A stretch of DNA of 64,000 nucleotides. Source: Bordetella genomosp. 2. Its GTDB lineage: Bacteria > Pseudomonadota > Gammaproteobacteria > Burkholderiales > Burkholderiaceae_B. Position numbers and translations under genes: made by a program. Within the stretch, counting starts at the first letter, position 1, and each line of letters opens with the position of its first letter. The DNA lies in the NCBI RefSeq assembly GCF_002261345.1, contig NZ_NEVT01000006.1:248001-312000 (forward strand), in the 5' to 3' direction. Below, piece after piece: positions 9,801 through 37,417 of this stretch. Below the pieces are notes generated by a model. The model ran no database searches and was not told the origin of the DNA. It saw only the letters and a program-made list of their open reading frames with translations.

Positions 9801-9816
9801 GGCGGTCGCGCTGGCG

Positions 9817-10596
9817 CTAGCGCATGCCGAGCAGCCGCTCGACCTCGCGCGCCAGCGTCACCAGCCGCGGACCAAGATCGGCGGCCCGGGCCTTGTACGG
9901 GCCGTCGCACGACGGCACGCCGCAATTGAAGACGTACAGCAAAGATTCGTGCTGGCGGTACAGCGGCACCGCGAAGCCATAGGCATCGGGGCGCCACTGC
10001 AGGTTGTTGCCGCAGTATCCCTTGCGCTCCAGGTCGCGCTGCGCGCCCGCCAGGGCGGAAACGTGCCGTTCGAATTCGCCCGGATTGGCGACGCGCAACT
10101 GGTTCAGCACCGCGACGCGCTCGGCGTCCGGTACGCGGCTCAGCCAGGCCATGCCGGCCGCGCTGGCCAGCATCGGCAGCGCGGCGCCGATGTCGGGGCG
10201 CGTTTGCAGACGCTCGTTCGAGCGCGCCGTTTCCACATAGACCATTTGCAGCCGGTCCCGCACCACCAGGGATACGGCGCCGCGCGCATGGTCCGCCAGC
10301 TGCTTCATCAGGGGTCGGGCGACCTGGCGGATCTGCATGCTGGCGAGCAGCGGATGGCTCATGGCCAGCACCGAGGCGCCCAGCCGGTAGCGCGCGGTAG
10401 CGGGATCGCGCTGCAAGAAACCCAATTCGACCAGTGTGTGCGTCAGGCGGGCGACGGCGCTGCGCGATAGCCCGGTCTGGTGCGCGAAGTCCTTGTTGGC
10501 CAGCTCTGGCTTGTCGGCCTTGAAACAGGCCAGGATGTCGATGCCATGCGCCAGGGTGCTGGCGAACTGGGTGTCGCGCTCACTGGAGGAACTCAT
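9817..10596 (-). CDS. IclR-family transcriptional regulator (first of tandem pair)
   Basis: 259 residues. The winged helix is at residues 10-65, with recognition helix SRSAVARLTHTLVELGF ending at residue 60. A ligand-binding IclR effector domain follows (VSLVVRDRLQMVYVETA). The start at 10596 has TCCTCC-complementary bases only within the coding start. Its ATG overlaps the stop of the neighbouring upstream IclR gene (10593-11396) by 4 bp, so the two are translated together. The proteins are clearly related along their whole length. Probably controls the divergent acyl-CoA catabolic operon, by position. Confidence 0.88.
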   Translation of the reverse strand: MSSSSERDTQFASTLAHGIDILACFKADKPELANKDFAHQTGLSRSAVARLTHTLVELGFLQRDPATARYRLGASVLAMSHPLLASMQIRQVARPLMKQLADHARGAVSLVVRDRLQMVYVETARSNERLQTRPDIGAALPMLASAAGMAWLSRVPDAERVAVLNQLRVANPGEFERHVSALAGAQRDLERKGYCGNNLQWRPDAYGFAVPLYRQHESLLYVFNCGVPSCDGPYKARAADLGPRLVTLAREVERLLGMR

Positions 10597-11396
10597 GCGC
10601 CGCGCTCCGCCCGTTCGAGCAGGACTTCGACCCGCGCCACCAGTTGCGCCAGCCGTGGGGCAATGCGGCCTTCCAGCTCGCCGGCTTTGAGGCGCGAAGC
10701 CGGCAAGCCGCAATTGAACACCAGAACATGGCCGTCTATCGGGCGGCGCAACGGCACCGCGACGGCATGCACGTCCGAATGCCAGTCGCCCGCGGACAGG
10801 CAATAGCCATGCCGCGCATAGTCGCCGCGGGCGCGTTCCCAGGCCGGCGCATAGCGCTTCCAGCCTGCCGGATCGCGGCTGCGCAAGGCTTGCAGGATAG
10901 GCGTCGCGGTGGCGCTGTCGCACTGGGCCAGCCAGGCGCGCCCCATCGCCGAGGCGAGCAGCGGCAACAAGGCGCCGATATCCGGCCGGAAAGCGATCGC
11001 ATCGTGCCCGCGGCAGGTTTCCAGGTAGACCATGTGCAGGCCGTCGCGCATGCCCAAGGATGCGGAGCCGCCCGCCTGGTCGGCCAGGCGCTTCATGAGG
11101 GGCCGCGCCAGCTGGCGGATTTTCATGCTGGCCAGCAGGGGATAGCTCAACGACAGCACCGCCGGCCCCAGCCGGTAGCGCCGCAGTCTGCCGTCATAGA
11201 GCAACAGGCCGCGCTGCAGCAGCGTATAGGTCAGGCGCGATATGGTGGCCTTGGACAGCCCGGTGCGTTCGGCCAGCTCTTTGTTGCTGAGCGCTGGTTC
11301 GCCGTGGCGGAAGGTTTGCAGCACCGACAGGCCATGGGCCAGGGTAGTGGCGAAAGCGGGGTCCGGGTGGCGCCCGGAAGCGGTGGGGGGTGTCAT
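10593..11396 (-). CDS. IclR-family transcriptional regulator (second of tandem pair)
   Basis: 267 residues. The winged helix lies at residues 15-70 (recognition helix SKATISRLTYTLLQRGL), and the effector domain contains ASLGMRDGLHMVYLETC. It shares the overall pattern of the adjacent IclR protein, such as TTLAHGLSVL against STLAHGIDIL and IRQLARPLMKRLADQA against IRQVARPLMKQLADHA. This points to tandem duplication followed by divergence. It faces the acyl-CoA dehydrogenase gene at 11554 across 157 bp that hold a perfect inverted repeat (11464-11502), its likely operator. Confidence 0.88.
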   Translation of the reverse strand: MTPPTASGRHPDPAFATTLAHGLSVLQTFRHGEPALSNKELAERTGLSKATISRLTYTLLQRGLLLYDGRLRRYRLGPAVLSLSYPLLASMKIRQLARPLMKRLADQAGGSASLGMRDGLHMVYLETCRGHDAIAFRPDIGALLPLLASAMGRAWLAQCDSATATPILQALRSRDPAGWKRYAPAWERARGDYARHGYCLSAGDWHSDVHAVAVPLRRPIDGHVLVFNCGLPASRLKAGELEGRIAPRLAQLVARVEVLLERAERGA

Positions 11397-11463
11397 TGCC
11401 AGGCTGGCCCGGGAGTTCTCCTGCCTGGAATGATAGCCGCCGCGCGCGTCGTTGTGTTCAAGA

Positions 11464-11502
11464 TATCAAAACAACCGTCTCGGATCTGCACGCGTTTTGA
11501 TA
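11464..11502. promoter_or_regulatory. Inverted repeat, likely IclR operator
   Basis: TATCAAAAC at 11464-11472 and its exact complement GTTTTGATA at 11494-11502 are separated by 21 bp, placing the arm centres 30 bp apart, about three helical turns. The pair sits in the middle of the divergent region between the IclR pair and the acyl-CoA dehydrogenase gene. Binding by one or both IclR proteins is inferred from position. Confidence 0.6.
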
Positions 11503-11553
11503 GTCTGCCAGGCATCGACGCCACCGGCGCTTGCCGCCACAGGACCAGGCAGA

Positions 11554-12720
11554 ATGATCAGAGATCCCGACAGCTTTTCCGCATTTCTCGACTCGTTGCG
11601 GTGCTTCGTGCGCGAGCGCCTGGTGCCGCGCGAAGCCGAAGTGGCGCGCGCCGACGCCGTGCCGGACGACCTGGTGCGCGAGATGGCCGGCCAGCACATG
11701 TTCGGCTATTCGATTCCGGCCGAGTACGGCGGCCTGGGGCTGACCACCGAGGAGCTGGTGCTGGCGGCGCTGGAGCTGTCGCAGTGCTCGGTGGCGTTCC
11801 GCGCCCGCGTCGGCACCAACACCGGTATCGGTTCAGAGGCGCTGGTTGCCGACGGAACCGCGCAGCAGAAGGCGCGCTATCTGCCGCGCCTGGCCTCGGG
11901 CGAAATCACCGGCTCGTTCGCCCTGACCGAGCCGCAGGCCGGATCGGACGCCACCGCGCTGCAGACCACGGCCCGCCGCGACGGCGATGCCTATGTGCTG
12001 AATGGCGAAAAATGCTTCATCACCAATGCGCCGCTGGCCGGCCTGTTCACGGTGATGGCGCGTACGGACGCGTCGCAAGCCGGCGCCGCCGGGATATCGG
12101 CGTTCCTCGTCGAGCGCGGCACGCCCGGCCTGGCCACCGGGCCGGCGTACGACAAGATGGGCCAGGCCGGCTCGCCCGTATCCTCGGTGCATTTCAGCGA
12201 TTGCCGGGTGCCGGCCGGGAATCTGATCGGCGGCCAGGAAGGCATGGGCTTCAAGACCGCCATGAAAGTCTTGAACAAGCAGCGCGTCCACCTGGCGGCG
12301 CTGTGCGTGGGGCCCGCCATACGCATGCTGGACGACGCGATGGCATTTGTGGCCGAGCGTCGCCAGTTCGGCCGGCCGCTGATGGATTTCCAGTTGATCC
12401 AGGCCATGATCGCCGATTGCCAGACCGAGATCCACGCCGCGCGCGCATTGGTGCTGCAAACGGCGCGCGAGCGCGACGAGGGAAAGGATGTCACGCTCGC
12501 GGCGTCGATGTGCAAGTACTTCGCATCCGAAATGTGCGGCCGCGTGGCCGACCGCTGCGTCCAGATGCACGGCGGATATGGCTATGTCGCCGACTACGCG
12601 GTGGAACGCTTCTATCGCGATGTCAGGCTGTTCCGCCTCTACGAAGGCACCAGCCAGATCCACCAATTGACGATTGCCCGGCAGACGCTGACGCGCGCCG
12701 GATACTCGCCGGCCCGCTGA
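11554..12720 (+). CDS. Acyl-CoA dehydrogenase
   Basis: 388 residues with the three-part ACAD fold: N-terminal helices, the beta-domain ([19 protein letters not shown], then [10 protein letters not shown]), and the C-terminal helices. The signature [14 protein letters not shown] is followed by YEGTSQIHQ, where Glu364 occupies the usual catalytic-base position of short- and medium-chain enzymes. It should introduce the alpha-beta double bond in an acyl-CoA and pass electrons to ETF. It is the first gene of the operon controlled from the divergent IclR side. The substrate is unknown. Confidence 0.9.
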
Positions 12721-12778
12721 GCGGCATCCAGGGGCCGCATCCACGACATACAAGACGGCCCTCCACCAGGAGACAAGC

Positions 12779-13751
12779 ATGAAAAGATTGGCAAAATGGG
12801 TTGCCGGCACCGCCGTGGCGCTGTCGGCGGCATGGCCCGGCCTGGCCGCCGCGGCCTATCCGGAGCGTCCCATCCGTTTGATCGTGCCGTTTGCGCCGGG
12901 CGGCTCGACCGACATTCTGGGGCGGCTCCTGGCGGACGCCTTGCCGCCCATCCTGGGCCAGCCCGTGATCGTCGAGAACAAACCGGGCGCCGGGGGGCAA
13001 TATCGGCGGCGACATCGTGGCGCGGGCCGAACCGGACGGCTACACGCTGCTGCTCGCAGCCGCGGGCCCGACCGTGATCAATCCGAGCCTGTACCGGGAC
13101 ATGCCGTTCGACCCGGCCAGGGACCTGGCGCCGATCAGCTGCATCACCCGCGAACACAACCTGATGGCGGTCGGGCAGTCGGTGCCCGCTGCGACGCTGG
13201 GCGAGTTTCTCGATTATGCCCGCTCCAACCCCGGCAAACTGTCGTTCGGCTCGCCCGGCAACGGCTCGCCGGCGCAATTGGCCGGCGAATTGCTCAAGCA
13301 GAAGACCGGCATCCAGATGGAACATGTGCCCTACAAGGGCACCGGCCCGGCCGTGACGGACCTGATCGCCGGCCATATCGCCGTCATGATCGACAACATG
13401 CCGGCGCTGTTGCCGCACGTCCAGGCCGGACGGCTGCGCGCGCTGGCGGTGCCCAGCGATACGCGGGCCGCCGCCGCGCCGGATATCCCGACGTTCCAGG
13501 AAGCCGGCGTGCCGGATTTCGTGGTCATGGCGTGGAAGGGCTTGATGGCGCCGGCCGGGACACCGGACGCGGTGGTCGAGCGCCTGAGCGCCGCGATTTC
13601 CCAGGCGCTGGCCGACCCGAAGCTGCGCGAGCGACTGCAGGCCATGGGCGCGGAGCCGCTGGGCAGCACGCCGCAGCAGTTCGCCCAGCAGATCGCGTCG
13701 GAAACCGCCTGGTGGCGCGAGCTGGTGCAATCCACCGGGACCCGGATCTAG
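12779..13751 (+). pseudogene. Bug/TctC-family periplasmic solute receptor, +1 frameshift at a G6 run
   Basis: The start [19 protein letters not shown] is a signal peptide and is followed by [19 protein letters not shown] and [10 protein letters not shown], the Bug-family N-terminus. At bases 12992-12997 there are six G, after which the original frame becomes Arg-rich nonsense. The matching sequence continues in another frame from [19 protein letters not shown] to [13 protein letters not shown]. With five G the two parts join as [19 protein letters not shown], an intact receptor of about 323 residues. So the gene is either broken, phase-variable, or carries a sequence error. It lies 58 bp after the acyl-CoA dehydrogenase and 12 bp before a second Bug gene. 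Confidence 0.85.
12992..12997 (+). repeat. G6 homopolymer at the frameshift in the first Bug gene
   Basis: Six consecutive G. Deleting one G restores the full Bug reading frame. See the Bug pseudogene entry. Confidence 0.85.
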
Positions 13752-13763
13752 TAAGGGGCACGC

Positions 13764-14735
13764 ATGAGACTCTCGCGATTCAAACCCTGGGCCTTGGCCT
13801 GCGCGGGGCTGTTGCTGGCGGCGGCCGGCAGCGCCGCCGCCGCGTATCCGGAGCAGCCGATACGGCTCATCGTCCCTTATGCCGCCGGCGGCGGCACCGA
13901 CACGGCGGCGCGCATGCTGGCCAAGAAGCTTGCGCCGCGCCTCGGGCAGCCCGTCCTGGTCGAGAACAAGCCCGGCGGCGCCACCCAGATCGGCACGGCC
14001 TATGTGGCGCGCGCCAGGCCCGACGGCTATACCTTGTTGATGGGCACCGCCAATCTGGCGACCAATGCCGTGCTGTACCGGAACCTGCCCTACGACGTCG
14101 CCCGGGACTTGACGCCAGTGGCCTGGGCGACCGATGTGCCGGTGTATGTGCTGGCACTGGCCGGCGCCGGCATTGTCGACCTGGCCAGCCTGCGGCGGGC
14201 CGCGGGCCAGGGCACGGGCCTGGCTTACGCCACCGCCGGAGTCGGCAGCATCCCGCATCTGGCCGCCGAGATGTTCGCGCACCAGTTCGGGATGCCATTG
14301 CGGCACATTCCGTACAAGGGTAGCGCCGAGGCCGTTGCGGCGCTGGCCGGCGGCCAGGTGCCGCTCAGCTTCGACAACCTGCCGCCGGTGCGCGCGCAGA
14401 TCGAGGCGGGCCGCGTCGTCCCGCTGGCCATCGCCGCCGCGCGGCGCAATCCGCTGCTGCCCGAAGTGCCGACGCTCGCCGAGTGGGGATACCCGCTGGA
14501 GGCGTCGTCCTGGTGGGGCGTCATGGCGCCGGCTGGCACGCCCGCGGACATCGTCGAGACCTTGAACCGGCACATCGACGCGGTACTGGCCGACCCCGAG
14601 GTCCGCGAGTACTTCGTGCAGCAGGGCATGCAGCCCATGGGCGGCGCCCCCGGCGAGTTCGGCCGGCACATTGTGGAAGAGACGCGCAAATGGCGCGCAG
14701 CCGTCGAGCAGGCGGGAGTGCGGGTGACGCAATGA
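13764..14735 (+). CDS. Bug/TctC-family periplasmic solute receptor
   Basis: 323 residues, the usual length of the family. The signal peptide ends near [11 protein letters not shown]. The family blocks are [64 protein letters not shown] and [18 protein letters not shown]. Bug proteins capture small carboxylates or amides for tripartite tricarboxylate or other transport; no TctA/TctB membrane genes lie nearby, so it is an orphan receptor. The stop overlaps the start of the next acyl-CoA dehydrogenase gene by ATGA coupling. Its ligand is probably the substrate of this operon. Confidence 0.9.
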
Positions 14736-15937
14736 ACGGGATGAAAACCACGACAGAGCGGGGCTACGCCGGCGATATCGACCAGTTGCGGGCGCGCGTG
14801 CGCCGCTTCGTCGAGGAAGCGGCCATTCCGCTCGAATCGCCGGCGTTGGCGCACGATGTGGCGGCCCTGGATGCGGCTATCGCGCAGTTGCGCAAGCGGG
14901 CGCGCGATGACGGCATCTACGCGCCGCAGTTGCCGCCGCGCTGGGGCGGCCTGGGACTGGACTGGCGACAGTGCGTCGCGGTTCTGGAAGAGGCGGGGCG
15001 CGGGTTCCTGGCGCCGGCGGCCATGAACTGCGCGCCGCCGGACCAGCCCAACATGCTGACCTTGCTGGCCATTGGCAGCGCGGCGCAGCAGGCGCGCTAC
15101 CTGGGGCCGTTGGCGCGCGGCGAAGCCCGCGCCTGTTTCGCCATGACCGAGCCGTCGCCGGGCGCGGGTTCTGATCCCGCCATGCTGGCTACCCGGGCCG
15201 AGCGGCGGGGCGGCCGCTGGGTGCTCAACGGCCGCAAGATGTTCATCAGCGGCGGCGTGGGCGCGGCCTTTGCCCTGGTGCTGGCGCGCACCGATGCCGG
15301 CGCGAGCCTGTTCATCGTCAACGCCGATGCGCCGGGCTATCGCGTGGTTCGCGATATCGGCATGGCGACCGGATACCAGGTGGGCGGCCATGCCGAGATC
15401 CTGCTGCAGGACTGCGAGGTAGGCGACGAGGCTCTGCTGGGCGAGCCGGGCAGGGGCTTCGAGTATGCCCAACTGCGGCTGGAGCCGGCGCGGCTGTCGC
15501 ACTGCATGCGCTATATCGGCCGCGCCGCCCGGGCGCTGGAGCTGGCGCAGGGCTACGTGCAGCAGCGGGAATCCTTCGGCGCCCGGCTGGCCGACCTGCA
15601 GCAGGTGCAGGCCATGGTCGCCGATTCGCACATCGACCTGCATGCCAGCCGGCTCATGACAGCCGATTGCGCGGCGGCGCTGGACGCCGGCCGCTCGGTC
15701 AAGCACTTGTCGTCGATGACCAAGGTCTTCGTGTCCGAGGCCGTCAATCGCGTCGCCGACCGGGCCGTGCAGATGATGGGCGCGCTGGGCGTTTCCGACG
15801 AGACACCGGTGTCGATGATCTGGCGCGAATTACGGCCGTTCCGCATCTATGACGGCGCCAACGAACTGCACCGGGCGACCCTGGCGCGGCGCATCCTGCG
15901 CCCGGCGTCGCCGCTTCTCTCCACAGGAAAATCATGA
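14732..15937 (+). CDS. Acyl-CoA dehydrogenase (ACAD10/11-like)
   Basis: 401 residues. The FAD/substrate beta-domain shows CFAMTEPSPGAGSDPAML and LNGRKMFISGG. The C-terminal motif reads RIYDGANELHR, so Asp374 stands where most family members have the catalytic Glu; a comparable DG-x-x-E-hH motif occurs in the ACAD10/11 branch, which suggests an unusual substrate such as a hydroxylated or branched acyl-CoA. It starts inside the end of the Bug gene (ATGA) and overlaps the next gene by 4 bp. The operon thus has two acyl-CoA dehydrogenases of different types. Confidence 0.87.
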   Translation: MNGMKTTTERGYAGDIDQLRARVRRFVEEAAIPLESPALAHDVAALDAAIAQLRKRARDDGIYAPQLPPRWGGLGLDWRQCVAVLEEAGRGFLAPAAMNCAPPDQPNMLTLLAIGSAAQQARYLGPLARGEARACFAMTEPSPGAGSDPAMLATRAERRGGRWVLNGRKMFISGGVGAAFALVLARTDAGASLFIVNADAPGYRVVRDIGMATGYQVGGHAEILLQDCEVGDEALLGEPGRGFEYAQLRLEPARLSHCMRYIGRAARALELAQGYVQQRESFGARLADLQQVQAMVADSHIDLHASRLMTADCAAALDAGRSVKHLSSMTKVFVSEAVNRVADRAVQMMGALGVSDETPVSMIWRELRPFRIYDGANELHRATLARRILRPASPLLSTGKS

Positions 15938-16932
15938 GCATCCCGCCGTTTCTCGCCTACCGGTTGCATGCGCCGGCCTCCGGCACGCGTCCGGCCGGCC
16001 GCTTCGAGACCCTGGGCATCGATGATCTCTCGCCGGGCGAGGTCGTCATACGGGTGGCGTATGCCGGCCTCAATTACAAAGACGCCCTGGCCGCGGCGGG
16101 AGAGGGGCGCATCATCCGCGCCTATCCGCGCATCGGCGGCATCGACCTGACCGGGCGGGTGGTCGCCTCGGGCAGCGACGCCGTGGCGACGGGGCAGGAA
16201 GTCATCGTGCACGGCTTCGGCATCGGGGTCGATTGCGACGGCGGCTACGCCGAATATGCCCGCGTGCCGGCCGACTGGGTCATGCCATTGCCGCCGGGCC
16301 TGGGCCTGCGCGACGCCTGCGTCCTGGGCGCCGCCGGCTATACCGCCGGCCTGGCGTTGCACTGGATGGAACACAGCGGCCTGGCGCCGGCGCAAGGCGA
16401 GGTGCTGGTAACCGGCGCGACCGGCGGGGTGGGCAGCATCGCGGTCGACATGTTCAGCCAGTGCGGTTATCGCGTATGCGCCATGTCGGGCAAGCCCGAT
16501 GCCGTCGAGTACTTGCGGGGTCTGGGCGCCGCCGAAGTGCTCGCGCCGGCGCCCGCGCCGGCGTCCGGGGCCAAGCCGCTCGACAGCGCGCGCTGGGCCG
16601 GCGTGGTCGACTCCGTGGGAGGCGAGGTGCTGGCGCGCGCCCTGAGCGCGCTCAAGCCCGAGGGCATTGCCGCGGCCTTCGGGAATGCGGGCGGCATGCA
16701 ACTGCCGACCACTGTGCTGCCGTTCATCCTGCGCGGCGTCAAGCTGCTGGGCATCAACGCCAATAGTCCCATGCCCCTGCGCCGGCAGGTCTGGGGCAAG
16801 ATCGCCACCCGCTACCGGCCCGCCCGCCTCGACGCGATCGCGCATGTCATCGAGCCCGCCGCGTTGCCGCAGTCGCTCGACGCCATGCTGCGGCGAGCCA
16901 GCCGCGGCCGCACTGTCGTCGATTTTTCCTGA
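15934..16932 (+). CDS. Zinc-free medium-chain reductase, YhdH/AcuI (acrylyl-CoA reductase) family
   Basis: 332 residues of the MDR superfamily. The N-terminal part has YAGLNYKDALAAAGEGRI and RIGGIDLTGRVVASGSD, hallmark blocks of the YhdH/AcuI branch. A Rossmann motif VTGATGGVGSIAVDMF follows, then NSPMPLRRQVWGKIATRY near the end. Family members reduce acrylyl-CoA to propionyl-CoA with NADPH. Here it could reduce a short unsaturated acyl-CoA made in the same operon. It overlaps the acyl-CoA dehydrogenase gene by 4 bp and is 20 bp from the next gene. Confidence 0.85.
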   Translation: MSIPPFLAYRLHAPASGTRPAGRFETLGIDDLSPGEVVIRVAYAGLNYKDALAAAGEGRIIRAYPRIGGIDLTGRVVASGSDAVATGQEVIVHGFGIGVDCDGGYAEYARVPADWVMPLPPGLGLRDACVLGAAGYTAGLALHWMEHSGLAPAQGEVLVTGATGGVGSIAVDMFSQCGYRVCAMSGKPDAVEYLRGLGAAEVLAPAPAPASGAKPLDSARWAGVVDSVGGEVLARALSALKPEGIAAAFGNAGGMQLPTTVLPFILRGVKLLGINANSPMPLRRQVWGKIATRYRPARLDAIAHVIEPAALPQSLDAMLRRASRGRTVVDFS

Positions 16933-16952
16933 AACCGATTCCGCCACCAGCC

Positions 16953-19052
16953 ATGACCTCGCGCGCAGAGCTTTCCCGTCTATTTCATCCTCGCAGCATT
17001 GCCGTCGTCGGCGCGTCCGCCGCGCCCAACAAGATCGGCGCGATGCCGCTGACGCTGCTGCGCCGCCACGGCTATGCGGGGCGCATCGTGCCGGTGAACC
17101 CGCGCGGCGGGACCATTCTGGACTTGCCCGCATGTCCGGACCTGGCCGCTCTGGCCGAGCCGGTGGACTTGGCTATTCTGGCCGTGCCCGCGGAGCACGC
17201 CGCCGACGCGCTGGCCCGGGCGCGCCCGGGCCAGGTGGCGGGGGCAGTGGTGTTCACCTCCGGCTATGCCGAGACCGGCGAGGCGGGCAGGGCCCGCCAG
17301 GCGCGCCTGGAGGCCGTCGCGCGCGAGCGCGGCATCCGCTTGCTGGGGCCCAACTGCCTGGGCTTCATGAACGTGCGCGAGCAGGTTTACGCGACCTTCT
17401 CGCCGGCGCCCATGAACGGCACCGTCGCCGCCGGCGACATCGGCATGGTTTCGCAGAGCGGCGCGTTCGGGGCCTATGCCTACAGCATGGCGCGGGAACG
17501 CGGGCTGGGGCTGTCATACTGGATCAGTACCGGCAATGAAGCGGATCTCGACGTGTCGGACTGCATCACATGGCTGGTCGACGATCCCCATACTCGCGTC
17601 ATCATGGTGTACATGGAAGGCTGCCGTGACGGCGCGAAGCTGCGCCACGCCCTGGCGGCGGCCAGCCAGGCCGGCAAGGCCGTGGTGGTGGCGAAGATCG
17701 GCCGCACCGCCGCCGGCGCCCAGGCGGCAGCCTCGCACACGGCCGCCCTGGCCGGCGACGACGCGGTCTACGACGCACTGTTCCGCCAATACGGCGTGGC
17801 GCGCGCGCACACGATCGACGAGTTCTTCAACCTGGGCTACGCGCTGAGCGCCTGGCCGCAGCGGCCGGCCGGCCGCCGGCTGGGCATCATCACGATTTCC
17901 GGCGGGGTGGGCGCGCTGATGGCCGATGACGCGCAGGACGCCGGGCTGATGTTGCCCGAGCCAGCGCAGTCCGTCCGTGACCGGCTGTTGGCGCGCGTGC
18001 CTTTCGCCAGCGCGCGCAACCCGGTGGATGTGACCGGCCAGGCAGTGGCCGAGCCCGGCCTGTTGCTGGAGACGGCCGACGGGATGCTCGCCGGAGGCAC
18101 CTATGACGCCCTGGCGGTGTTCCTGGCGGCGGCGGGCTCGCTGGATTCGCTATGGCCGACGTTCGAGTCGTTCGCGCGGGAACTGCGCGAGCGTCATCCC
18201 GCAGTGCCGCTGTCACTGTGCGCGATCTTCCCGCAGGTGCGGCGGCAGGCGCTGGAGGCGCTGGGATGCCCCGTCTTCACCGACCCTAGCGCCGCCATCC
18301 GGACCTTGGGCGCCGTGGCGGTCATGGAAGACGCGGCCGAGCCCGTCGTCATGCCTGAGCGGCAGGCAGCGGCCGCGGAACTGCCCGCCGGCTCCGGCCC
18401 GCTCAACGAAATCGAGGCGCTGGCGCTGGTCCGCCAGGCTGGGATCCCGACGGTGGACGCGCGTCTCGTCGCCAGCGCGGACGAGGCGGTGGCCCAGGCC
18501 GATGCCGTGGGCGGCCCGGTGGCGCTCAAGATCGTGTCGCGCGACATCCTGCACAAATCGGACGTGGGAGGCGTCCGGCTGGCCCTGCAAGGGGCCGGCC
18601 AGGTGCGCGGCGCGCATGCCGGCATCATGGCGGCGGTCGGGCAGCAGGCTCCCCAGGCGCGCATCGACGGGGTGCTGGTCGCCCCGATGGCGCCGGCCGG
18701 GGTGGAGTGCATCCTGGGCATGCACCGCGACCCGGTGTTCGGGCCAGTCATCATGTTCGGCCTGGGCGGCGTGTATGTGGAGATCCTGCGCGACATCAGT
18801 TTCCGCCTGGCGCCGTTCGGGCATGCCCAGGCCCGCGCCATGATCGCCGGGCTGCGAACATACCCGCTGCTGTGCGGCGCGCGGGGTGCGCCGCCCTGCG
18901 ACGTGGAGGCCCTGGCCGACGCCCTGGTGGCGTTCGCCGCGCTGGCGCACGCGGCGCCGGACCGCATCGAGTCGATCGAGATCAATCCGTTGCTGGCGCT
19001 GCCGCGCGGACAGGGCGTACTGGCGCTGGATGCGGTGGCCGTCGCGAGCTAG
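16953..19052 (+). CDS. ADP-forming acyl-CoA synthetase, fused alpha and beta subunits
   Basis: 699 residues, the usual length for fused acetate-CoA ligase (ADP-forming) proteins. The N-terminal CoA-binding domain starts LFHPRSIAVVGASAAPNKIG. The phosphohistidine region is likely at ASHTAALAGDDAVYDALF. The C-terminal ATP-grasp domain has VALKIVSRDILHKSDVGGV and ends in IEINPLLALPRG. It interconverts acyl-CoA + ADP + Pi and free acid + CoA + ATP, so it could either activate the substrate or conserve energy at the end of the pathway. It is the last gene of the 11554-19052 operon. Confidence 0.87.
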   Translation: MTSRAELSRLFHPRSIAVVGASAAPNKIGAMPLTLLRRHGYAGRIVPVNPRGGTILDLPACPDLAALAEPVDLAILAVPAEHAADALARARPGQVAGAVVFTSGYAETGEAGRARQARLEAVARERGIRLLGPNCLGFMNVREQVYATFSPAPMNGTVAAGDIGMVSQSGAFGAYAYSMARERGLGLSYWISTGNEADLDVSDCITWLVDDPHTRVIMVYMEGCRDGAKLRHALAAASQAGKAVVVAKIGRTAAGAQAAASHTAALAGDDAVYDALFRQYGVARAHTIDEFFNLGYALSAWPQRPAGRRLGIITISGGVGALMADDAQDAGLMLPEPAQSVRDRLLARVPFASARNPVDVTGQAVAEPGLLLETADGMLAGGTYDALAVFLAAAGSLDSLWPTFESFARELRERHPAVPLSLCAIFPQVRRQALEALGCPVFTDPSAAIRTLGAVAVMEDAAEPVVMPERQAAAAELPAGSGPLNEIEALALVRQAGIPTVDARLVASADEAVAQADAVGGPVALKIVSRDILHKSDVGGVRLALQGAGQVRGAHAGIMAAVGQQAPQARIDGVLVAPMAPAGVECILGMHRDPVFGPVIMFGLGGVYVEILRDISFRLAPFGHAQARAMIAGLRTYPLLCGARGAPPCDVEALADALVAFAALAHAAPDRIESIEINPLLALPRGQGVLALDAVAVAS

Positions 19053-19077
19053 GAGCACTGCAAAAATCGCGGCGCCG

Positions 19078-19100
19078 GATTACATTCACGGCAAATGTAT
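19078..19100. promoter_or_regulatory. Putative cop box upstream of copR
   Basis: GATTACATT begins at 19078, and TACATT (19081-19086) is mirrored by AATGTA (19094-19099) with a 7-bp spacer. The element lies 12 bp before the copR start. GATTACA recurs in the dyad before copA (21149-21168), which supports a shared CopR site, though the spacing of the inverted arms differs. Confidence 0.5.
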
Positions 19101-19111
19101 GAAGGCGAACC

Positions 19112-19786
19112 ATGCGAATACTGGTCATCGAGGACGAGCGCAAGCTCGCGGACTATCTGCAGAAGGGCCTGGCCGAACAGAGCTTCGTGGTCGACGTGGC
19201 GCGCGACGGCGTCGAAGGCTGCCATGCGGCGTTGGAGTTCGACTACGACGTGGTGGTGCTGGACGTGATGCTGCCGGGCCTGGATGGCTTCGAAGTGCTG
19301 GCGCGCCTGCGCCGCGGCAAGAGCACGCCGGTGCTGATGCTGACCGCGCGCGACCGGGTCGAGGACCGCGTGCGCGGCCTGGAGGGCGGCGCCGACGACT
19401 ACCTGGTCAAGCCATTCGCGTTCTCCGAGCTGCTGGCGCGGGTGCATGCGCTGCTGCGGCGCGGGCGCGGCCAGGAGCCGGCCGTGCTGGCGCTGGACGA
19501 CCTGGAGCTGGACCTGGTGCGTCGCAAGGCCAGCCGGGCCGGGGTGCGGCTCGACCTGACCGCCAAGGAATTCACGCTGCTGGCCTTGCTGCTGCGCCGC
19601 CAGGGACAGGTGCTGTCGCGTACGCTGCTCGCTGAGCAGGTCTGGGACATGAACTTCGACGGCGATACGAATGTCATCGAAGTCGCGGTGCGGCGCCTGC
19701 GCGCCAAGCTGGACGATCCGTTCGACCGCCGGCTGCTGCACACGGTGCGCGGCATGGGCTATGTGCTGGAGCGACGCGAGCCATGA
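19112..19786 (+). CDS. copR: Copper-responsive response regulator (CopR/CusR type)
   Basis: 224 residues with an OmpR-type layout. The receiver domain has the phospho-acceptor Asp51 in [13 protein letters not shown], with the switch residues in MLTARD and LVKPFAF. The C-terminal winged helix ends [18 protein letters not shown] and [12 protein letters not shown], typical of the heavy-metal regulator branch. It overlaps the kinase gene by 4 bp and heads the copper locus, so it most likely activates copA. The dyads at 19078-19100 and 21149-21168 are candidate sites. Confidence 0.88.
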
Positions 19787-21165
19787 TGCGTCGCCCCGCG
19801 TCCATCGAGCGGCGGCTCACTTTGCTGCTGGGCGCCATCGCCCTGGCCGTGTCCAGCGTGGCCGGCTGCACGCTGTTCTGGGCCTTGCAGCGCGAGGTGC
19901 AGCGCCAGCAGATTACCGAGGTGGCCGGCAAGCTGGAACTCATCGAACACCTGATCGGCATGCAGGCCGGGCCGGAGCCGTCCGGGCACCTGGCCACCAC
20001 GCTGGACAATATCCTGGCCGGCCACGGCCAATTGCGCGCCTGGATCATCGGCGCCGACGGCCGGCCCCATTACGGAGGACCGGCGCCGCGTGTGCTGCGG
20101 GCCGGCCCGGGCGACGAAGTCCTGCTCGAGACCGGCGACGGCCAGCGCATGCGCGGCCTGCGGGTGGCCCTGGAGGCGGGGCCGTTCGACCGCGCCGCGC
20201 TGACCGTGGCCATCAGCACGCGGCCCGGCGGGCAATTCCTGTACACCTACGCGACTGCGCTGCTGCTGGTTTGCGCGCTGTGGGTGGGGGTGACCGTGGC
20301 CCTGGGCGCATGGGCGGTGCGGCGCTCGGTGGCGCCGCTGCGGCGTCTGTCGGCGCAGGCGGCACGCATCGGTCCCGGCAACCTCGCGGTGCGCCTGCCG
20401 CAGCCGGACGGCGATGCCGAGCTGCACGAGTTCGTCCGCACCTTCAACCAGCTGCTGGACCGGCTGCAGGCCGCCTACCAGCAACTGGAAGGCTTCAACG
20501 CCGACGTGGCGCACGAACTGCGCACGCCGCTCGCGACCCTGATCAGCGGCACGGAGATCGCCCTGGGCAGCGAGCGCAGCGCCGCCGAGCTGCGCGAGGT
20601 GCTGGCCTCCAACCTGGAAGAGCTGGAAAGCCTGCGCGCCCTGGTCAATGACATGCTGTTCCTGGCGCGCGCCGACAGCGGCGAATTGGCCCAGGACCTG
20701 CAGCCGGTCGACATGCGCGGGGAAATCGCGCGGGTCGCCGATTATTACGAGGCGGCGCTGGAGGCGGCCGGCCTGGCGCTGCGCATCGAGGGGCAGGGCG
20801 ACGGTGCGGCGCTGGCCAATCCGCGGCTGCTGCGCCGGGCGATCGCCAACCTGGTATCCAACGCGATCAAGGCCGCGCCGCGCGGCAGCGTCATCCGCGT
20901 CGCCTACGCGGCCGAGGGCGCCGGCATGCGGATCAGCGTGCGCAACACCGGCCCGGTCATCGCGCCGTCGGCCCTGCCGCGCATCTTCGACCGCTTTTAC
21001 CGCGGCGATGGCGCACGCGGCGGGCGCTCCGCGGGACACGGCCTGGGGCTGGCCATCGTGCGGGCGGTTGCGCGCATGCACGATGGCCGCGCGTTCGCCG
21101 CTTCCGACACGGACGGGACCGAAGTCGGCTTCAGCATCGGCACGCGGCAGATTACAGAAACGTAA
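19783..21165 (+). CDS. copS: Heavy-metal sensor histidine kinase (CopS/CusS type)
   Basis: 460 residues. Two membrane helices (about residues 10-30 and 155-180) bracket a periplasmic sensor region. A HAMP segment follows, then the H-box [16 protein letters not shown] with phosphorylated His244. The N box [11 protein letters not shown] and the G boxes ([22 protein letters not shown]) complete the ATPase. It is translationally coupled to copR. The stop codon lies inside the dyad 21149-21168, so the operator for the next gene overlaps the end of this one. Confidence 0.9.
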
Positions 21166-21168
21166 TCT
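21149..21168. promoter_or_regulatory. Perfect dyad (cop box) before copA
   Basis: AGATTAC at 21149-21155 and GTAATCT at 21162-21168 form an exact 7-bp inverted repeat with a 6-bp spacer. It overlaps the copS stop codon and lies 44 bp ahead of copA. A TAGAGT at 21200-21205 could be the -10 of a copA promoter. Binding by phosphorylated CopR is inferred. Confidence 0.6.
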
Positions 21169-21211
21169 GGCCGACAGCTTGGCGTCGGTCATGCGCGGCT
21201 AGAGTGTCCGC

Positions 21212-22954
21212 ATGACTGCATTGTTCGATACCGCGGGCCGGAAGCCCGCCTCGGCGCCGCGGCGCCGTTTCGTCCAGGGCCTGGCCGCCGGCGGCCTGCT
21301 GGCCGGGGCCGGGCTGCGCCATGGCGGCGCCTGGGCCGCGGCCGCGCCGGCAGTGTTGTCCGGCACACAGTTCGACCTGGAAATCGGCGAGTCGCCGGTG
21401 AACTACACGGGGCGGGCGCGCCGCGCGACCACGGTCAATGGCCAGCTGCCCGCGCCGGTGCTGCGCTGGCGCGAGGGCGATGACGTCACCTTGCGGGTCA
21501 CCAACCGCCTGCGCGAAGACACCTCGATTCACTGGCACGGCATCCTGCTGCCGAGCGGCATGGACGGGGTGCCGGGCTTGAGCTTCGCGGGGATCCGGCC
21601 GGGCGAGACCTTCACGTACCGGTTCCCGGTGCGCCAGAGCGGCACGTACTGGTACCACAGCCATTCGGGCCTGCAAGAGCAGACCGGCCTGTACGGCGCC
21701 ATCGTGATCGAGCCGCGGGCGCCCGCGCCGCCGCCGGCGGACCGCGACTACGTCGTGCTGCTGTCGGATTGGACGGATGAAGACCCGGCCGAGGTGTTCC
21801 GCAAGCTGATCGTGATGCCGGACTACTACAACCGCAATCGCCCCACGCTGGGCGACCTGGCGGCCCGGGCCGGGCAGGCCGGCTGGCGGCAGGCCTTGGA
21901 CGAGCGGCTGATGTGGCAGCGCATGCGCATGGACCCGACCGACCTGGCCGACGTATCGGGCGCCACCTATACCTACCTGACCAACGGCCGCTCGCCGGCG
22001 GGCAACTGGGCCGGGCTGTTCCGGCCCGGCGAGCAGATCCGGCTGCGCTTCATCAACGGCTCGGCCATGACCTACTTCGACGTGCGCATTCCCGGCCTGA
22101 AGCTGACCGTGGTGGCGGCCGATGGGCTGCCGGTGCGGCCGGTGGAGGTGGACGAGTTCCGCATTGCGGTAGCCGAGACCTACGATGTGATCGTCGAGCC
22201 GGACCAGGCGCGCGCCTATACGATTTTCGCGCAGGCCATGGATCGCTCCGGCTATGCGCGGGGCACGCTGGCGCCGCGGGCCGGCATGCAGGGCGAGGTG
22301 CCGCCGCTGGACCGCGTCCAGGTGCTGGGCATGGCGGACATGGGCATGCGCCACGACATGGCAGGCATGGGCCACGGCGCACACGGCGGGCATGGTGGCG
22401 GGCATGGCGGCGCGGCCGGCGGCGGCATGGTCGAAGCGCGGCATCCGTACCCGGCCGAGCGCGGCGTGGCGAACTCGATGCTGCCCGATGTGGTGTCGAC
22501 CCGGCTGGACGATCCGGGCGTAGGGCTGCGCGGCAACGGCCGCCGCGTGCTGACCTACGCGGACCTGCGCTCGGCCGCGGTCCCGGCCGACGAGCGGCCG
22601 CCCACCCGCGAGATCGAGCTGCACCTGACCGGCAACATGGACCGCTACCTGTGGTCGTTCAATGGGGTGAAGTTCGCCGATGCCAAGCCCATCGTGCTGC
22701 GCTACGGTGAACGGGTGCGCTTCGTACTGGTCAACGACACCATGATGACCCATCCTATCCACCTGCACGGGCTATGGAGCGACCTGGAATCTCCCGACGG
22801 CGCGTTCCAGGTGCGCAAGCACACCGTCAGCCTCAACCCGGCGCAGCGCATCAGCTATCGCGTCAGCGCCGATACGCGCGGCAACTGGGCCTACCACTGC
22901 CACCTGCTTTATCACATGGAAGCCGGCATGTTCCGGGCCGTGGTCGTGGAGTAG
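21212..22954 (+). CDS. copA: Periplasmic multicopper oxidase CopA
   Basis: 580 residues. A Tat signal (RRRFVQGLAAGGLLAG) exports the folded enzyme. The copper ligands are visible in four blocks: H107-W-H109, H149-S-H151, H514-P-I-H517-L-H519 and H562-C563-H564 with H568. Cys563 is the type 1 copper ligand. Residues about 374-406 are a Met/His/Gly-rich insert (MADMGMRHDMAGMGHG and on), typical of CopA and likely to bind extra Cu(I). It oxidises Cu(I) and sequesters copper in the periplasm. copB follows after 4 bp. Confidence 0.95.
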   Translation: MTALFDTAGRKPASAPRRRFVQGLAAGGLLAGAGLRHGGAWAAAAPAVLSGTQFDLEIGESPVNYTGRARRATTVNGQLPAPVLRWREGDDVTLRVTNRLREDTSIHWHGILLPSGMDGVPGLSFAGIRPGETFTYRFPVRQSGTYWYHSHSGLQEQTGLYGAIVIEPRAPAPPPADRDYVVLLSDWTDEDPAEVFRKLIVMPDYYNRNRPTLGDLAARAGQAGWRQALDERLMWQRMRMDPTDLADVSGATYTYLTNGRSPAGNWAGLFRPGEQIRLRFINGSAMTYFDVRIPGLKLTVVAADGLPVRPVEVDEFRIAVAETYDVIVEPDQARAYTIFAQAMDRSGYARGTLAPRAGMQGEVPPLDRVQVLGMADMGMRHDMAGMGHGAHGGHGGGHGGAAGGGMVEARHPYPAERGVANSMLPDVVSTRLDDPGVGLRGNGRRVLTYADLRSAAVPADERPPTREIELHLTGNMDRYLWSFNGVKFADAKPIVLRYGERVRFVLVNDTMMTHPIHLHGLWSDLESPDGAFQVRKHTVSLNPAQRISYRVSADTRGNWAYHCHLLYHMEAGMFRAVVVE

Positions 22955-22958
22955 GCGC

Positions 22959-23861
22959 ATGAAACATTGTTCCTTCATCCGCGCCGGCAGGTGGGCGGCA
23001 GGCTTGCTGGGGCTGCTGCTGGCCTGGCCGGTCGGGGCGCAGTCGGGCCACGCCGGCCACGGCATGGACCATGGCGGCGCGGCAGGACAGTCCGCACCCG
23101 CGCCGGCCGGGGAGCACGCGGCCATGCCCGGCATGACGCACGGCGCGGCGCCGGCGGGCCGCCTGCCGTCCAGCGATGGCGCGGGCGCGCGCGGCTACGA
23201 GGCTTACGGCATTCACGCCGGCATGATGGACGGCATGGCCGCCAGCCAGTTGCTGTTCGACAAGCTCGGCCTGGCGCACGACCGGGCCGGCCGCACCGGC
23301 CTGCAGTGGGACGGCGAATTCTGGCTCGGGCGGGGCCGGGACCGCTTGTGGATCAAGAGCGAAGGCGAACGCATCGGCGGCACCTCGGCGGCCAAGGTCG
23401 AGGCGTTCTGGAGCCGCGCCGTCTCGCCTTATTGGGACGTGCAGCTGGGCGCCCGGCGCGATTTCGGCGCCGGCCCGAAGCGCGACTGGCTCGCGCTCGG
23501 CCTGCAAGGCGTGGCGCCATACGAAATCGAGACCGAACTGACCGCCTATATGGGCAAGGCGGGGCGCACGGCGCTGGGGCTCAAGGCGGAGTACGATCTG
23601 CTGCTGACGCAGCGCCTGGTGTTCACGCCCGAAATCGAGGCCAGCCTGTATGGCGAAGACGATCCGGCACGCGGGGTTGGCGCCGGCCTGGCCGACGCCG
23701 CGCTGACCCTCAGACTGCGCTACGAAATCACCCGCCAGTTCGCGCCCTATGTCGGTGTATCCTTCGGCCGCAAGTTCGGCCAGACGGCGCGCTATGCCAG
23801 CGAGGCCGGCGAGAGCCGCTCGGAACGCGCGCTGCTGGCCGGGCTGCGCCTCTGGTTCTGA
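22959..23861 (+). CDS. copB: Outer-membrane copper resistance protein CopB
   Basis: 300 residues. A signal peptide is followed by a short Met/His-rich region (HAGHGMDHGGAAG, AAMPGMTHG) that can bind copper. The rest matches the CopB beta-barrel: EFWLGRGRDRLWIKSEGER, SPYWDVQLGARRD and a terminal strand ending GLRLWF with a C-terminal aromatic residue. It probably binds or exports copper at the outer membrane with CopA. No copC or copD gene follows, so this is the short form of the locus. Confidence 0.9.
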   Translation: MKHCSFIRAGRWAAGLLGLLLAWPVGAQSGHAGHGMDHGGAAGQSAPAPAGEHAAMPGMTHGAAPAGRLPSSDGAGARGYEAYGIHAGMMDGMAASQLLFDKLGLAHDRAGRTGLQWDGEFWLGRGRDRLWIKSEGERIGGTSAAKVEAFWSRAVSPYWDVQLGARRDFGAGPKRDWLALGLQGVAPYEIETELTAYMGKAGRTALGLKAEYDLLLTQRLVFTPEIEASLYGEDDPARGVGAGLADAALTLRLRYEITRQFAPYVGVSFGRKFGQTARYASEAGESRSERALLAGLRLWF

Positions 23862-23887
23862 ATGCCGCCACGACGAGACCACTCATC

Positions 23888-24367
23888 ATGCCAATCGATA
23901 TTTCCCGTCCCTTGTCCACCCGCCGCCGTCTGCTGGCCGGCCTCGCGCTCGCGCCGCTGGCGGCCCGGGCCGCCGCCCCGGGCGCCACGGTGCGGGTCTG
24001 GAAGACGCCGACCTGCGGTTGTTGCCAGGATTGGATCGCCCACCTGCGCGACCACGGTTTCCAGGTGGAAGTCAGCGAAGTCGACGACACCTCGGCGATC
24101 CGCGAGCGGCTGGGCATTCCCAGGGAGTATGGCTCGTGCCATACCGGCCTGGTGGCCGGCTATGCCCTGGAAGGCCACGTGCCGGCGCGGGACATCCAGC
24201 GCCTGCTGCGCGAGCGCCCGGCGGCGATCGGCCTGGCCGTGCCCGGCATGCCGCTCGGCTCGCCGGGCATGGACGGCCCCGAGTACGAGGGCCGCAAGCA
24301 TCCCTATGAAGTCCTGCTGGTGCGGCGCTGGGGCCTGACCTCGGTGTTCCAGGCCTATCCGGCCTAG
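23888..24367 (+). CDS. DUF411 exported metal-binding protein
   Basis: 159 residues. The N-terminus STRRRLLAGLALAPLAARAA looks like a Tat-type or Sec signal. The mature part has WKTPTCGCCQDWIAHL, a CxCC motif, then SCHTGLVAGYALEGHVPA and GLAVPGMPLGSPGM, the conserved DUF411 blocks. Family members occur with copper and silver resistance genes and are thought to bind metal through the Cys cluster. It is the third structural gene of the copper unit, 26 bp after copB, and converges on the M20 peptidase gene. Confidence 0.87.
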   Translation: MPIDISRPLSTRRRLLAGLALAPLAARAAAPGATVRVWKTPTCGCCQDWIAHLRDHGFQVEVSEVDDTSAIRERLGIPREYGSCHTGLVAGYALEGHVPARDIQRLLRERPAAIGLAVPGMPLGSPGMDGPEYEGRKHPYEVLLVRRWGLTSVFQAYPA

Positions 24368-35154: not shown

Positions 35155-35943
35155 ATGAAAAAACTGACCGCTGCTTTCCTGGTCTGCGCCACGTCGCTGC
35201 TCGCGGCCTGCGGGCAGAGCGACGACCCCGCCCCGCAAGCCGGCGCCGCCGCCGCCCAGAAAATTGTCGTCGGGCTGGACGACAATTTCCCGCCCATGGG
35301 CTTTCGCGACGAGAACAACCAGCTCGTCGGCTTCGACATCGACATGGCGCGCGAGGCCGCGCGCCGCATGGACATCCAGGTCGAGTTCAAGCCCATCGAC
35401 TGGAGCGCCAAGGAAGCCGAGCTCAACGGCAAGCGCGTCGACGTGCTCTGGAACGGCCTGACCATCACCGAAGAGCGCAAGCAGAACATCGCCTTCACCG
35501 CGCCCTACATGGCCAATCACCAGATCATCCTGGTTGCCCACGGCTCGCCGGTGCAGGCCAAGGCCGACCTGGCCGGCAAGGTGGTCGGCGCGCAGGACGG
35601 CAGCAGCGCCGTCGACGCCATCAAGAAAGACGCGCCAGTCGCCGCCAGCCTGAAAGAGATCAAGCTGTTCGGCGACAACGTCACCGCCCTGATGGACCTC
35701 TCGGCCGGCCGCCTGGATGCCGTGGTGGTGGACGAAGTAGTGGGCCGCTACCTGGCCAACAAGCGCGAAGGGCAGTACCGCGTCCTGGACGAGAATTTCG
35801 GCACCGAGGACTACGGCGTGGGCGTGCGCAAGGACGACACCGAGCTGCTGGCCCGGCTCGACCAGACCCTCGCCGCCATGAAAAAGGATGGCTCCGCCGC
35901 CCGCATCGCCCAGCAATGGTTTGGCGCCGACATCATCAAATAG
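35155..35943 (+). CDS. Polar amino acid ABC transporter, substrate-binding lipoprotein
   Basis: 262 residues of the SBP_bac_3 family. The lipobox LLAAC places the lipidated Cys at residue 19. The mature part begins KIVVGLDDNFPPMGFRDEN, followed by GFDIDMAREAARRM and the family block WNGLTITEERKQNIAFTAPY. It should bind a polar amino acid and deliver it to the downstream permease and ATPase. The permease gene, 38 bp downstream, is frameshifted, so the system may be inactive in this copy. The ligand cannot be told from sequence. Confidence 0.9.
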   Translation: MKKLTAAFLVCATSLLAACGQSDDPAPQAGAAAAQKIVVGLDDNFPPMGFRDENNQLVGFDIDMAREAARRMDIQVEFKPIDWSAKEAELNGKRVDVLWNGLTITEERKQNIAFTAPYMANHQIILVAHGSPVQAKADLAGKVVGAQDGSSAVDAIKKDAPVAASLKEIKLFGDNVTALMDLSAGRLDAVVVDEVVGRYLANKREGQYRVLDENFGTEDYGVGVRKDDTELLARLDQTLAAMKKDGSAARIAQQWFGADIIK

Positions 35944-35981
35944 GCGCGGGCGCCGGCCCGCTGAGCGCCTAGGATAGCCGC

Positions 35982-36636
35982 ATGGATTACGTCATTTCCC
36001 TGCTGGGGCCCATGGCGCAGGGGGGCCAGGACCACCCTGACGCTGTTCTTCGTCACCTTCGCGCTGGCAGTGCCCCTGGGGCTGCTGCTGGCGCTGGCGC
36101 GCATCTCGCACTGGCGGCTGCTCAGCCAATTGGTCAACGGCTACATCTGGCTGATGCGCGGCACGCCGCTCATGCTGCAGATGCTGTTCATCTACTTCGC
36201 GCTGCCGTTCGTGCCGGTGGTGGGGGTGCGCCTGCCCGATTTCCCGGCCGCGGTGGTGGCGTTCACGCTGAACTACGCCGCCTATTTCGCCGAGATCTTC
36301 CGCGCCGGCATCCAGTCGGTGGACCGTGGCCAGTACGAGGGCAGCAAGGTGCTGGGCATGAGCTACCTGCAGACCCTGCGGCGCATCGTGCTGCCGCAGA
36401 TGGTGCAGCGCGTGCTGCCGCCCATGAGCAACGAGACCATCACCCTGGTCAAGGACACCTCGCTCATCTACGTGCTGGCGCTCAACGACATCCTGCGCAC
36501 CGCGCGCGGCATCGTGCAGCGCGACTTCACCACCACGCCGTTCCTGGTCGCGGCGGCCTTCTACCTGATCATGACGCTGGTGCTGACCTGGCTGTTCCAG
36601 CACATGGAAAAACGCTATGCCAAGTACGACCAATAG
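35982..36636 (+). pseudogene. Polar amino acid ABC permease (HisM/GlnP type), +1 frameshift at a G6 run
   Basis: It begins MDYVISLLGPMAQG and then leaves the family frame at a run of six G (36020-36025). The true sequence continues in the +1-shifted frame from LFFVTFALAVPLGLLLALAR. It keeps the membrane helices, GTPLMLQMLFIYFALP and the EAA loop (GSKVLGMSYLQTLRRIVLPQ), and ends FQHMEKRYAKYDQ. With five G the start would read MAQGARTTLTLFF and give about 217 residues. An internal ATG at 36070 would lose the first membrane helix. The end overlaps the ATPase gene by 20 bp. Confidence 0.85.
36020..36025 (+). repeat. G6 homopolymer at the frameshift in the ABC permease
   Basis: Six consecutive G. 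Removal of one restores the permease frame from the ATG at 35982. It is the same kind of tract and the same direction of shift as at 12992-12997. Confidence 0.85.
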
Positions 36637-37417
36637 CCCCGTCGCCGCCGATCCGCGTCCGGTGATGATCGCGGCGCGCGAGGTCGGCAAATCGTTCGGC
36701 GCCGCGCGCGTGCTGGACCAGGTGTCGCTGACGCTGCGCAAGGGCGAGGTGGTCGCGGTGATCGGCCCGTCGGGGTCGGGCAAGAGCACCTTCCTGCGCT
36801 GCCTGATCCACCTCGAGACCATCGACGAAGGCAGCATAGAGATCGAGGGCGAGGCCCTGGCGACGGCCGTGCCGGGCGGCCCGAGCCGCTATGTGCGCGA
36901 TGCGGAGGTGCGGCGCATCTGCCGCAAGATGGGCATGGTGTTCCAGTCGTTCAACCTGTTCCCCCACATGACCGTGCTCGAGAACATCATCGAGGCGCCG
37001 GTGACCGTGCAGGGCGTGCCGCGCGACCAGGCCATCCCGAAGGCCGAGGCGCTGCTGCGCAAGGTGGGGCTGCTGAACAAGCGCGACAACTATCCGGCGC
37101 GCCTGTCGGGCGGGCAGAAGCAGCGCGTGGCGATCGCCCGGGCGCTGGCCATGGAGCCGGACATCATGCTGTTCGACGAGCCGACCTCGGCGCTCGACCC
37201 CGAACTCACCGGCGAGGTCCTGCGCACCATGCGGCAACTAGCCGACGAGCACATGACCATGCTGGTGGTCACCCACGAGATGGGCTTTGCCCGCGAAGCC
37301 GCGCATCGGGTGGTGTTCATGGACGAAGGCCGCATCGTCGAAGAAGCGCCGGCCGAGACCTTCTTCCGGGCCCCGCAGCAGCCGCGCGCCCGCGCGTTCC
37401 TGGGGAAGATGCTGTAG
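36617..37417 (+). CDS. Polar amino acid ABC transporter ATP-binding protein (GlnQ/HisP type)
   Basis: 266 residues. Walker A GPSGSGKST starts at residue 50, the signature is LSGGQKQR, and Walker B is [15 protein letters not shown], the standard polar amino acid set. The His switch is in MLVVTHEMGFAREAA. The start overlaps the permease end by 20 bp, so it is translated with it. It would energise uptake with the binding lipoprotein and the permease. Loss of the permease frame would leave it without a partner. Confidence 0.92.
   Translation: MPSTTNSPVAADPRPVMIAAREVGKSFGAARVLDQVSLTLRKGEVVAVIGPSGSGKSTFLRCLIHLETIDEGSIEIEGEALATAVPGGPSRYVRDAEVRRICRKMGMVFQSFNLFPHMTVLENIIEAPVTVQGVPRDQAIPKAEALLRKVGLLNKRDNYPARLSGGQKQRVAIARALAMEPDIMLFDEPTSALDPELTGEVLRTMRQLADEHMTMLVVTHEMGFAREAAHRVVFMDEGRIVEEAPAETFFRAPQQPRARAFLGKML

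Follow-up and report, generated by a model that had tools for sequence, protein, structure and literature searches.

A split amino acid permease gene in a Bordetella assembly probably reflects one overcalled base in a short G run

An amino acid ABC permease gene in the window, the whole stretch of 64,000 nucleotides that was analyzed, loses its reading frame by +1 at six G (36020-36025). We consider it probable (about 0.64) that the split permease is an artifact of assembly or base calling, with one base too many called in a short G run of a functional gene; as biology, the split is probably not a feature. This reading rests on a combination of observations: the lesions are singletons, they go in one direction, they occur at one kind of site, they fall in unrelated conserved genes, and no other frameshifts were recognized in the sample.

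The permease gene opens with an ATG at 35982. The run of six G (36020..36025, + strand), located from the sequence and from alignments with relatives, begins 38 bases later, and the permease then continues in a different frame until 36636. The 227-residue ORF that starts at the permease start codon (35982..36665, + strand) exits the permease frame at the run and has no Pfam or NCBIfam match at an E value of 0.001. The remainder of the permease, 188 residues from its first in-frame start (36070..36636, + strand), matches BPD_transp_1 (PF00528) with 97 bits (cut-off 26.4) and TIGR01726 with 82.5 bits, above the curated cut-off of 42.2. Because the nearest upstream stop in the permease frame lies at 35962 and the next start codon after that stop is the GTG at 36070, the window contains no full-length permease frame. 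A complete permease reading frame is absent from this assembly, being broken at 36020-36025, and the +1 frame change at six G that the preliminary description had reported is confirmed by the sequence, the ORFs and the family matches.

The permease belongs to a three-gene importer (35155-37417) consisting of binding protein, permease and ATPase. The amino acid binding protein (35155..35943, + strand) is an intact 262-residue ORF with a lipoprotein-type start and an SBP_bac_3 match of 145.9 bits, and the ATPase of the same importer (36617..37417, + strand) is an intact 266-residue ORF with an ABC_tran match of 127.6 bits. Both flanking genes had been described as intact, which agrees with their open frames and Pfam matches. 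With a permease remainder above the family cut-off and a binding protein and an ATPase adjoining it, the locus resembles polar amino acid ABC importers of the HEQRo permease family (TIGR01726), but differs from them in that the permease has no full-length frame in this assembly. Most likely, the locus encodes a polar amino acid ABC importer with an ordinary, functional permease gene.

A homolog search with the importer stretch covered 61 genomes, including the host genome itself (5.02 Mb in nine contigs, labeled G000), and 35 of them matched. In all eight same-genus relatives searched, the permease stays open over one frame of 217 residues; among the genomes seen, the lesion is therefore a singleton. 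The G run at the site is shorter or interrupted in the DNA alignments of all eight, none of which has six or more G at this position. Among 91 homologous permease loci (L001 and L089 being one record), the frame ahead of the residue that corresponds to 36070 is open over at least 20 residues in 90, and over 19 in the exception. For the part of the permease after the run, dN/dS is 0.107, 0.074, 0.011 and 0.061 against G004, G003, G005 and G008, respectively, with 99.5% amino acid identity to G005 at a dS of 0.22. The intact neighbors give 0.085-0.125 (binding protein) and 0.068-0.107 (ATPase) against the same four relatives. By these ratios, strong purifying selection acts on the sequence beyond the run, at a level like that of the intact neighbors; the permease was therefore selected until very recently, or still is.

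A second transport gene in the window carries the same kind of lesion. A TctC/Bug receptor gene (12779..13751, + strand) lies in two frames with a TctC match on both pieces, the short first one scoring 23.5 bits, under the cut-off of 27, and the remainder 230.7 bits. The coding-frame model described below and alignments place its +1 shift at a run of six G (12992..12997, + strand), and a homolog with 79% identity and one base fewer at the site is found in G001 (same genus) and in G011 (same family). Two transport genes with like G6 lesions about 23 kb apart had been noted from the sequence, and the TctC/Bug break at 12992-12997 is indeed real too. The gene is located inside a stretch of about 14 kb (window 9800-23900, about 9.8-23.9 kb) for which G003, G004, G005 and G008 show no long alignment at the corresponding place.

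Across the genome, 11 of the 202 judged runs of six or seven G break a gene, all of them by +1 according to their frame indices, in a survey whose selection of G6 and G7 runs favors finding +1 lesions and covers one-base losses less well than gains. Broken sites amount to 8/152 distinct G6 runs and 3/50 G7 runs. The first three lesions shared the context GCM-G6-C, for which all 41 sites were judged and four found broken; a special role of this context is weakened by two breaks in the reversed context C-G6-MCG (22 of 22 sites judged) and two in T-G6-C (90 of 101 sites judged). One site common to the GCM-G6-C and C-G6-MCG sets reduces the G6 total to 152. The G7 set contributed the remaining three breaks (50 of 98 sites judged). 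In the same genome, 104 G6 and 22 G7 coding runs are in frame, and the rest are noncoding or at gene edges. The coding strand carries G at seven of the 11 breaks and C at four.

The lesions are spread over five of the nine contigs (C1, C3, C5, C6 and C8), which rules out a local cause, and a transport-specific cause is ruled out by the eight of 11 broken genes that are non-transporters by reading. Besides the ABC permease, the broken genes are two TctC/Bug receptors, an SDR, a DoxX-like gene, an RpiR/SIS regulator, a LysR gene, CyoB, a CoA transferase III, an aminotransferase and a GlcD-like oxidase. They are mostly metabolic and regulatory, and most look like cytoplasmic enzymes, regulators or inner-membrane proteins. 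Alignments with relatives cover the permease, first TctC/Bug, SDR and DoxX-like lesions. The other seven (second TctC/Bug, RpiR/SIS, CyoB, LysR, CoA transferase III, aminotransferase and GlcD-like) were assigned by the frame model and by reading of the translated pieces; the latter place the CyoB-like gene after a CyoA-like gene, with a G6 break near its start (L367 centre, G000:C5:622739). Pfam backs the identities of the SDR and the first TctC/Bug gene. The names of the seven genes and of the DoxX-like gene, whose 93-residue piece has no Pfam match, are those we presume from recognition of the translations. At L340, L365 and L473 in this genome, the frame changes proved on rechecking to be ordinary gene junctions. 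A seven-base run at L434 centre (G000:C1:148305) lies just past the possible start codon of a gene that is DAHP synthase-like by reading; this case is ambiguous and stands outside the 11.

Other types of frameshift were sought with a coding-frame model trained on these genomes and run on 464 kb, comprising the window and twenty 20-kb stretches. The model returned 139 frame switches, 16 of which failed the stop/start filter; by reading, the TctC/Bug gene was the sole mid-gene break among these, and the other 15 were gene ends or very short segments. Inspection of G/C runs of at least six bases near gene boundaries added the permease lesion and that of the SDR oxidoreductase gene, which is broken at a G6 run on contig C8 (L142:13831-13836). 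No other type of mid-gene frameshift was recognized in the 464 kb by a model that misses lesions close to the gene start. An ORF-comparison screen was swamped by shadow ORFs and was superseded by the coding-frame model. A tract-by-tract likelihood scan gave eight candidates in the genome, only one of which, the TctC/Bug gene, is a lesion by reading; the scan missed the permease and the SDR, and its negatives are therefore weak.

In the sister genomes G003 and G004, none of 164 distinct runs is broken. These control sites comprise 70 of the 102 GCM-G6-C sites and all 96 runs of at least six bases in 270 kb of each genome. The contrast with the host genome gives a Fisher p of 0.0014 (11/203, with one G000 site counted twice, versus 0/164), of 0.017 in the matched context GCM-G6-C (4/41 versus 0/70) and of 0.059 for G6 alone (8/153 versus 0/70); it is real, not overwhelming. 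Re-examination of 28 control sites at or near edges revealed no break, and the NhaA-like gene of G003, compared with the copy in the window, is unbroken. Control frame changes at L227, L159, L165 and near 15359 of the joined stretch of G004 proved to be ordinary gene junctions. The 270 kb of G003 contain two mid-gene frame changes, at L163 near 4692 and at L164 near 2246, both away from G/C runs of at least six bases, and the sister genomes are therefore not free of frameshifts. Ordinary gene decay, as exemplified by G003, looks different from the lesions in the host genome. The L164 gene appears, by reading, to be of the isochorismatase type.

An overcall of one base in the short G run would put the permease out of frame in the assembly, and residual one-base errors at G/C runs would be scattered over the assembly in unrelated genes. 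We infer that the extra run length is absent from the DNA of the cell. An artifact should recur at like runs in unrelated genes and be absent from sister assemblies, as seen here with 11/202 against 0/164. The same figures uphold part of an earlier proposal, that of a systematic base-calling error at G runs; a version of that error affecting every G run is contradicted by the 104 G6 and 22 G7 coding runs in frame. That G runs in the same assembly mostly leave the frame intact is itself a point against an artifact. For BLASTp-validated singleton frameshifts, the authors of the GeneTack survey expect sequencing errors and not genuine indels (PMC3711429). The present lesions resemble such singletons in that the frame changes in one genome and the homologs are intact elsewhere; they differ in that those found all lie at G/C runs six or seven bases long and go in one direction, partly by choice of the runs (PMC3711429). 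Until the reads are checked, it would accordingly be premature to take frameshifts at G/C runs in this assembly for pseudogenes or switches.

The main rival to an artifact is real, recent slippage at the G run that inactivated the permease, perhaps as one of dozens of young losses and possibly after a mutator phase or culture passage. We regard this tentatively as a possible, if rather unlikely, explanation. A real lesion of like kind is described in the same genus, where a lengthening from six C to seven throws bvgS of Bordetella pertussis out of frame (PMC1891110). This and other homopolymer variants of B. pertussis share with the present lesions a one-base change in a short G or C run that truncates a gene; they were verified by assay in strains, whereas the lesions here are known from one assembly and the genes are not virulence genes (PMC1891110). 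The broken share of judged coding runs is somewhat higher at G7 (3/25) than at G6 (8/112), in line with slippage, but overcalling predicts the same. None of the broken genes looks essential, as expected of real losses, which with 11 genes is a weak point against an artifact. Slippage is harder to reconcile with mutS and mutL, each of which has one open match per family without internal stops, a state compatible with missense loss; a mismatch-repair-defective mutator with a broken mutS or mutL was rejected on this basis. Gene decay should also leave a mixture of lesions, as in G003, but no other kind of mid-gene frameshift was recognized in the 464 kb, and it would be unusual for a single lineage to lose eleven genes, one of them cyoB-like, through one type of step. 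With mutS and mutL open and other lesion types lacking, a decaying or mutator lineage is less likely. It is very improbable that the lesions are real in the sense of a lineage that often lengthens short G/C runs by one base, with dozens of metabolic and regulatory genes silenced, perhaps reversibly, in a genome-wide on/off state while the mismatch repair genes are open. If so, the genome would be one in which slippage by single bases, at very short runs, has silenced genes on a wide scale.

Phase variation, in which the run would be a reversible switch turning the importer on and off, appears very improbable. It finds a parallel in B. pertussis, where changes in homopolymer tract length vary genes, also within single cultures (PMC1891110). 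The run of a contingency gene should be longer than chance and kept long in relatives. A six-base G run is of ordinary length, G6 being common in the genomes sampled; in the window, G6 is strongly under-represented (eight found versus 82 expected from shuffles), and none of the eight same-genus relatives retains a long run at the site. Switching is disfavored because of this lack of long runs in relatives, because mutS and mutL are open, and because most of the 11 affected genes (for enzymes, regulators or inner-membrane proteins) fall outside the classes that typically switch. The G-tract switching habit raised in the preliminary description thus finds no support in run length, relatives or gene classes. 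Programmed frameshifting or transcript slippage could in principle yield a full permease from the sequence as assembled, and the purifying selection on the permease remainder would fit. The permease is one open frame in all eight same-genus relatives, however, so no conserved recoding signal is expected, and the same event would be required in ten unrelated genes; we consider recoding extremely improbable. An overcalled base in the permease run thus remains our preferred reading.

With respect to run abundance, the genome contains 41 GCM-G6-C sites, compared with 54 and 48 in the sister genomes; a plain inflation of G6 counts is not seen in this context, which counts against an artifact. All eight G6 runs of the window are on the + strand. 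On contig C9, three TGGGGGGC sites lie on one strand within 85 bases (G000:C9:67795-67879).
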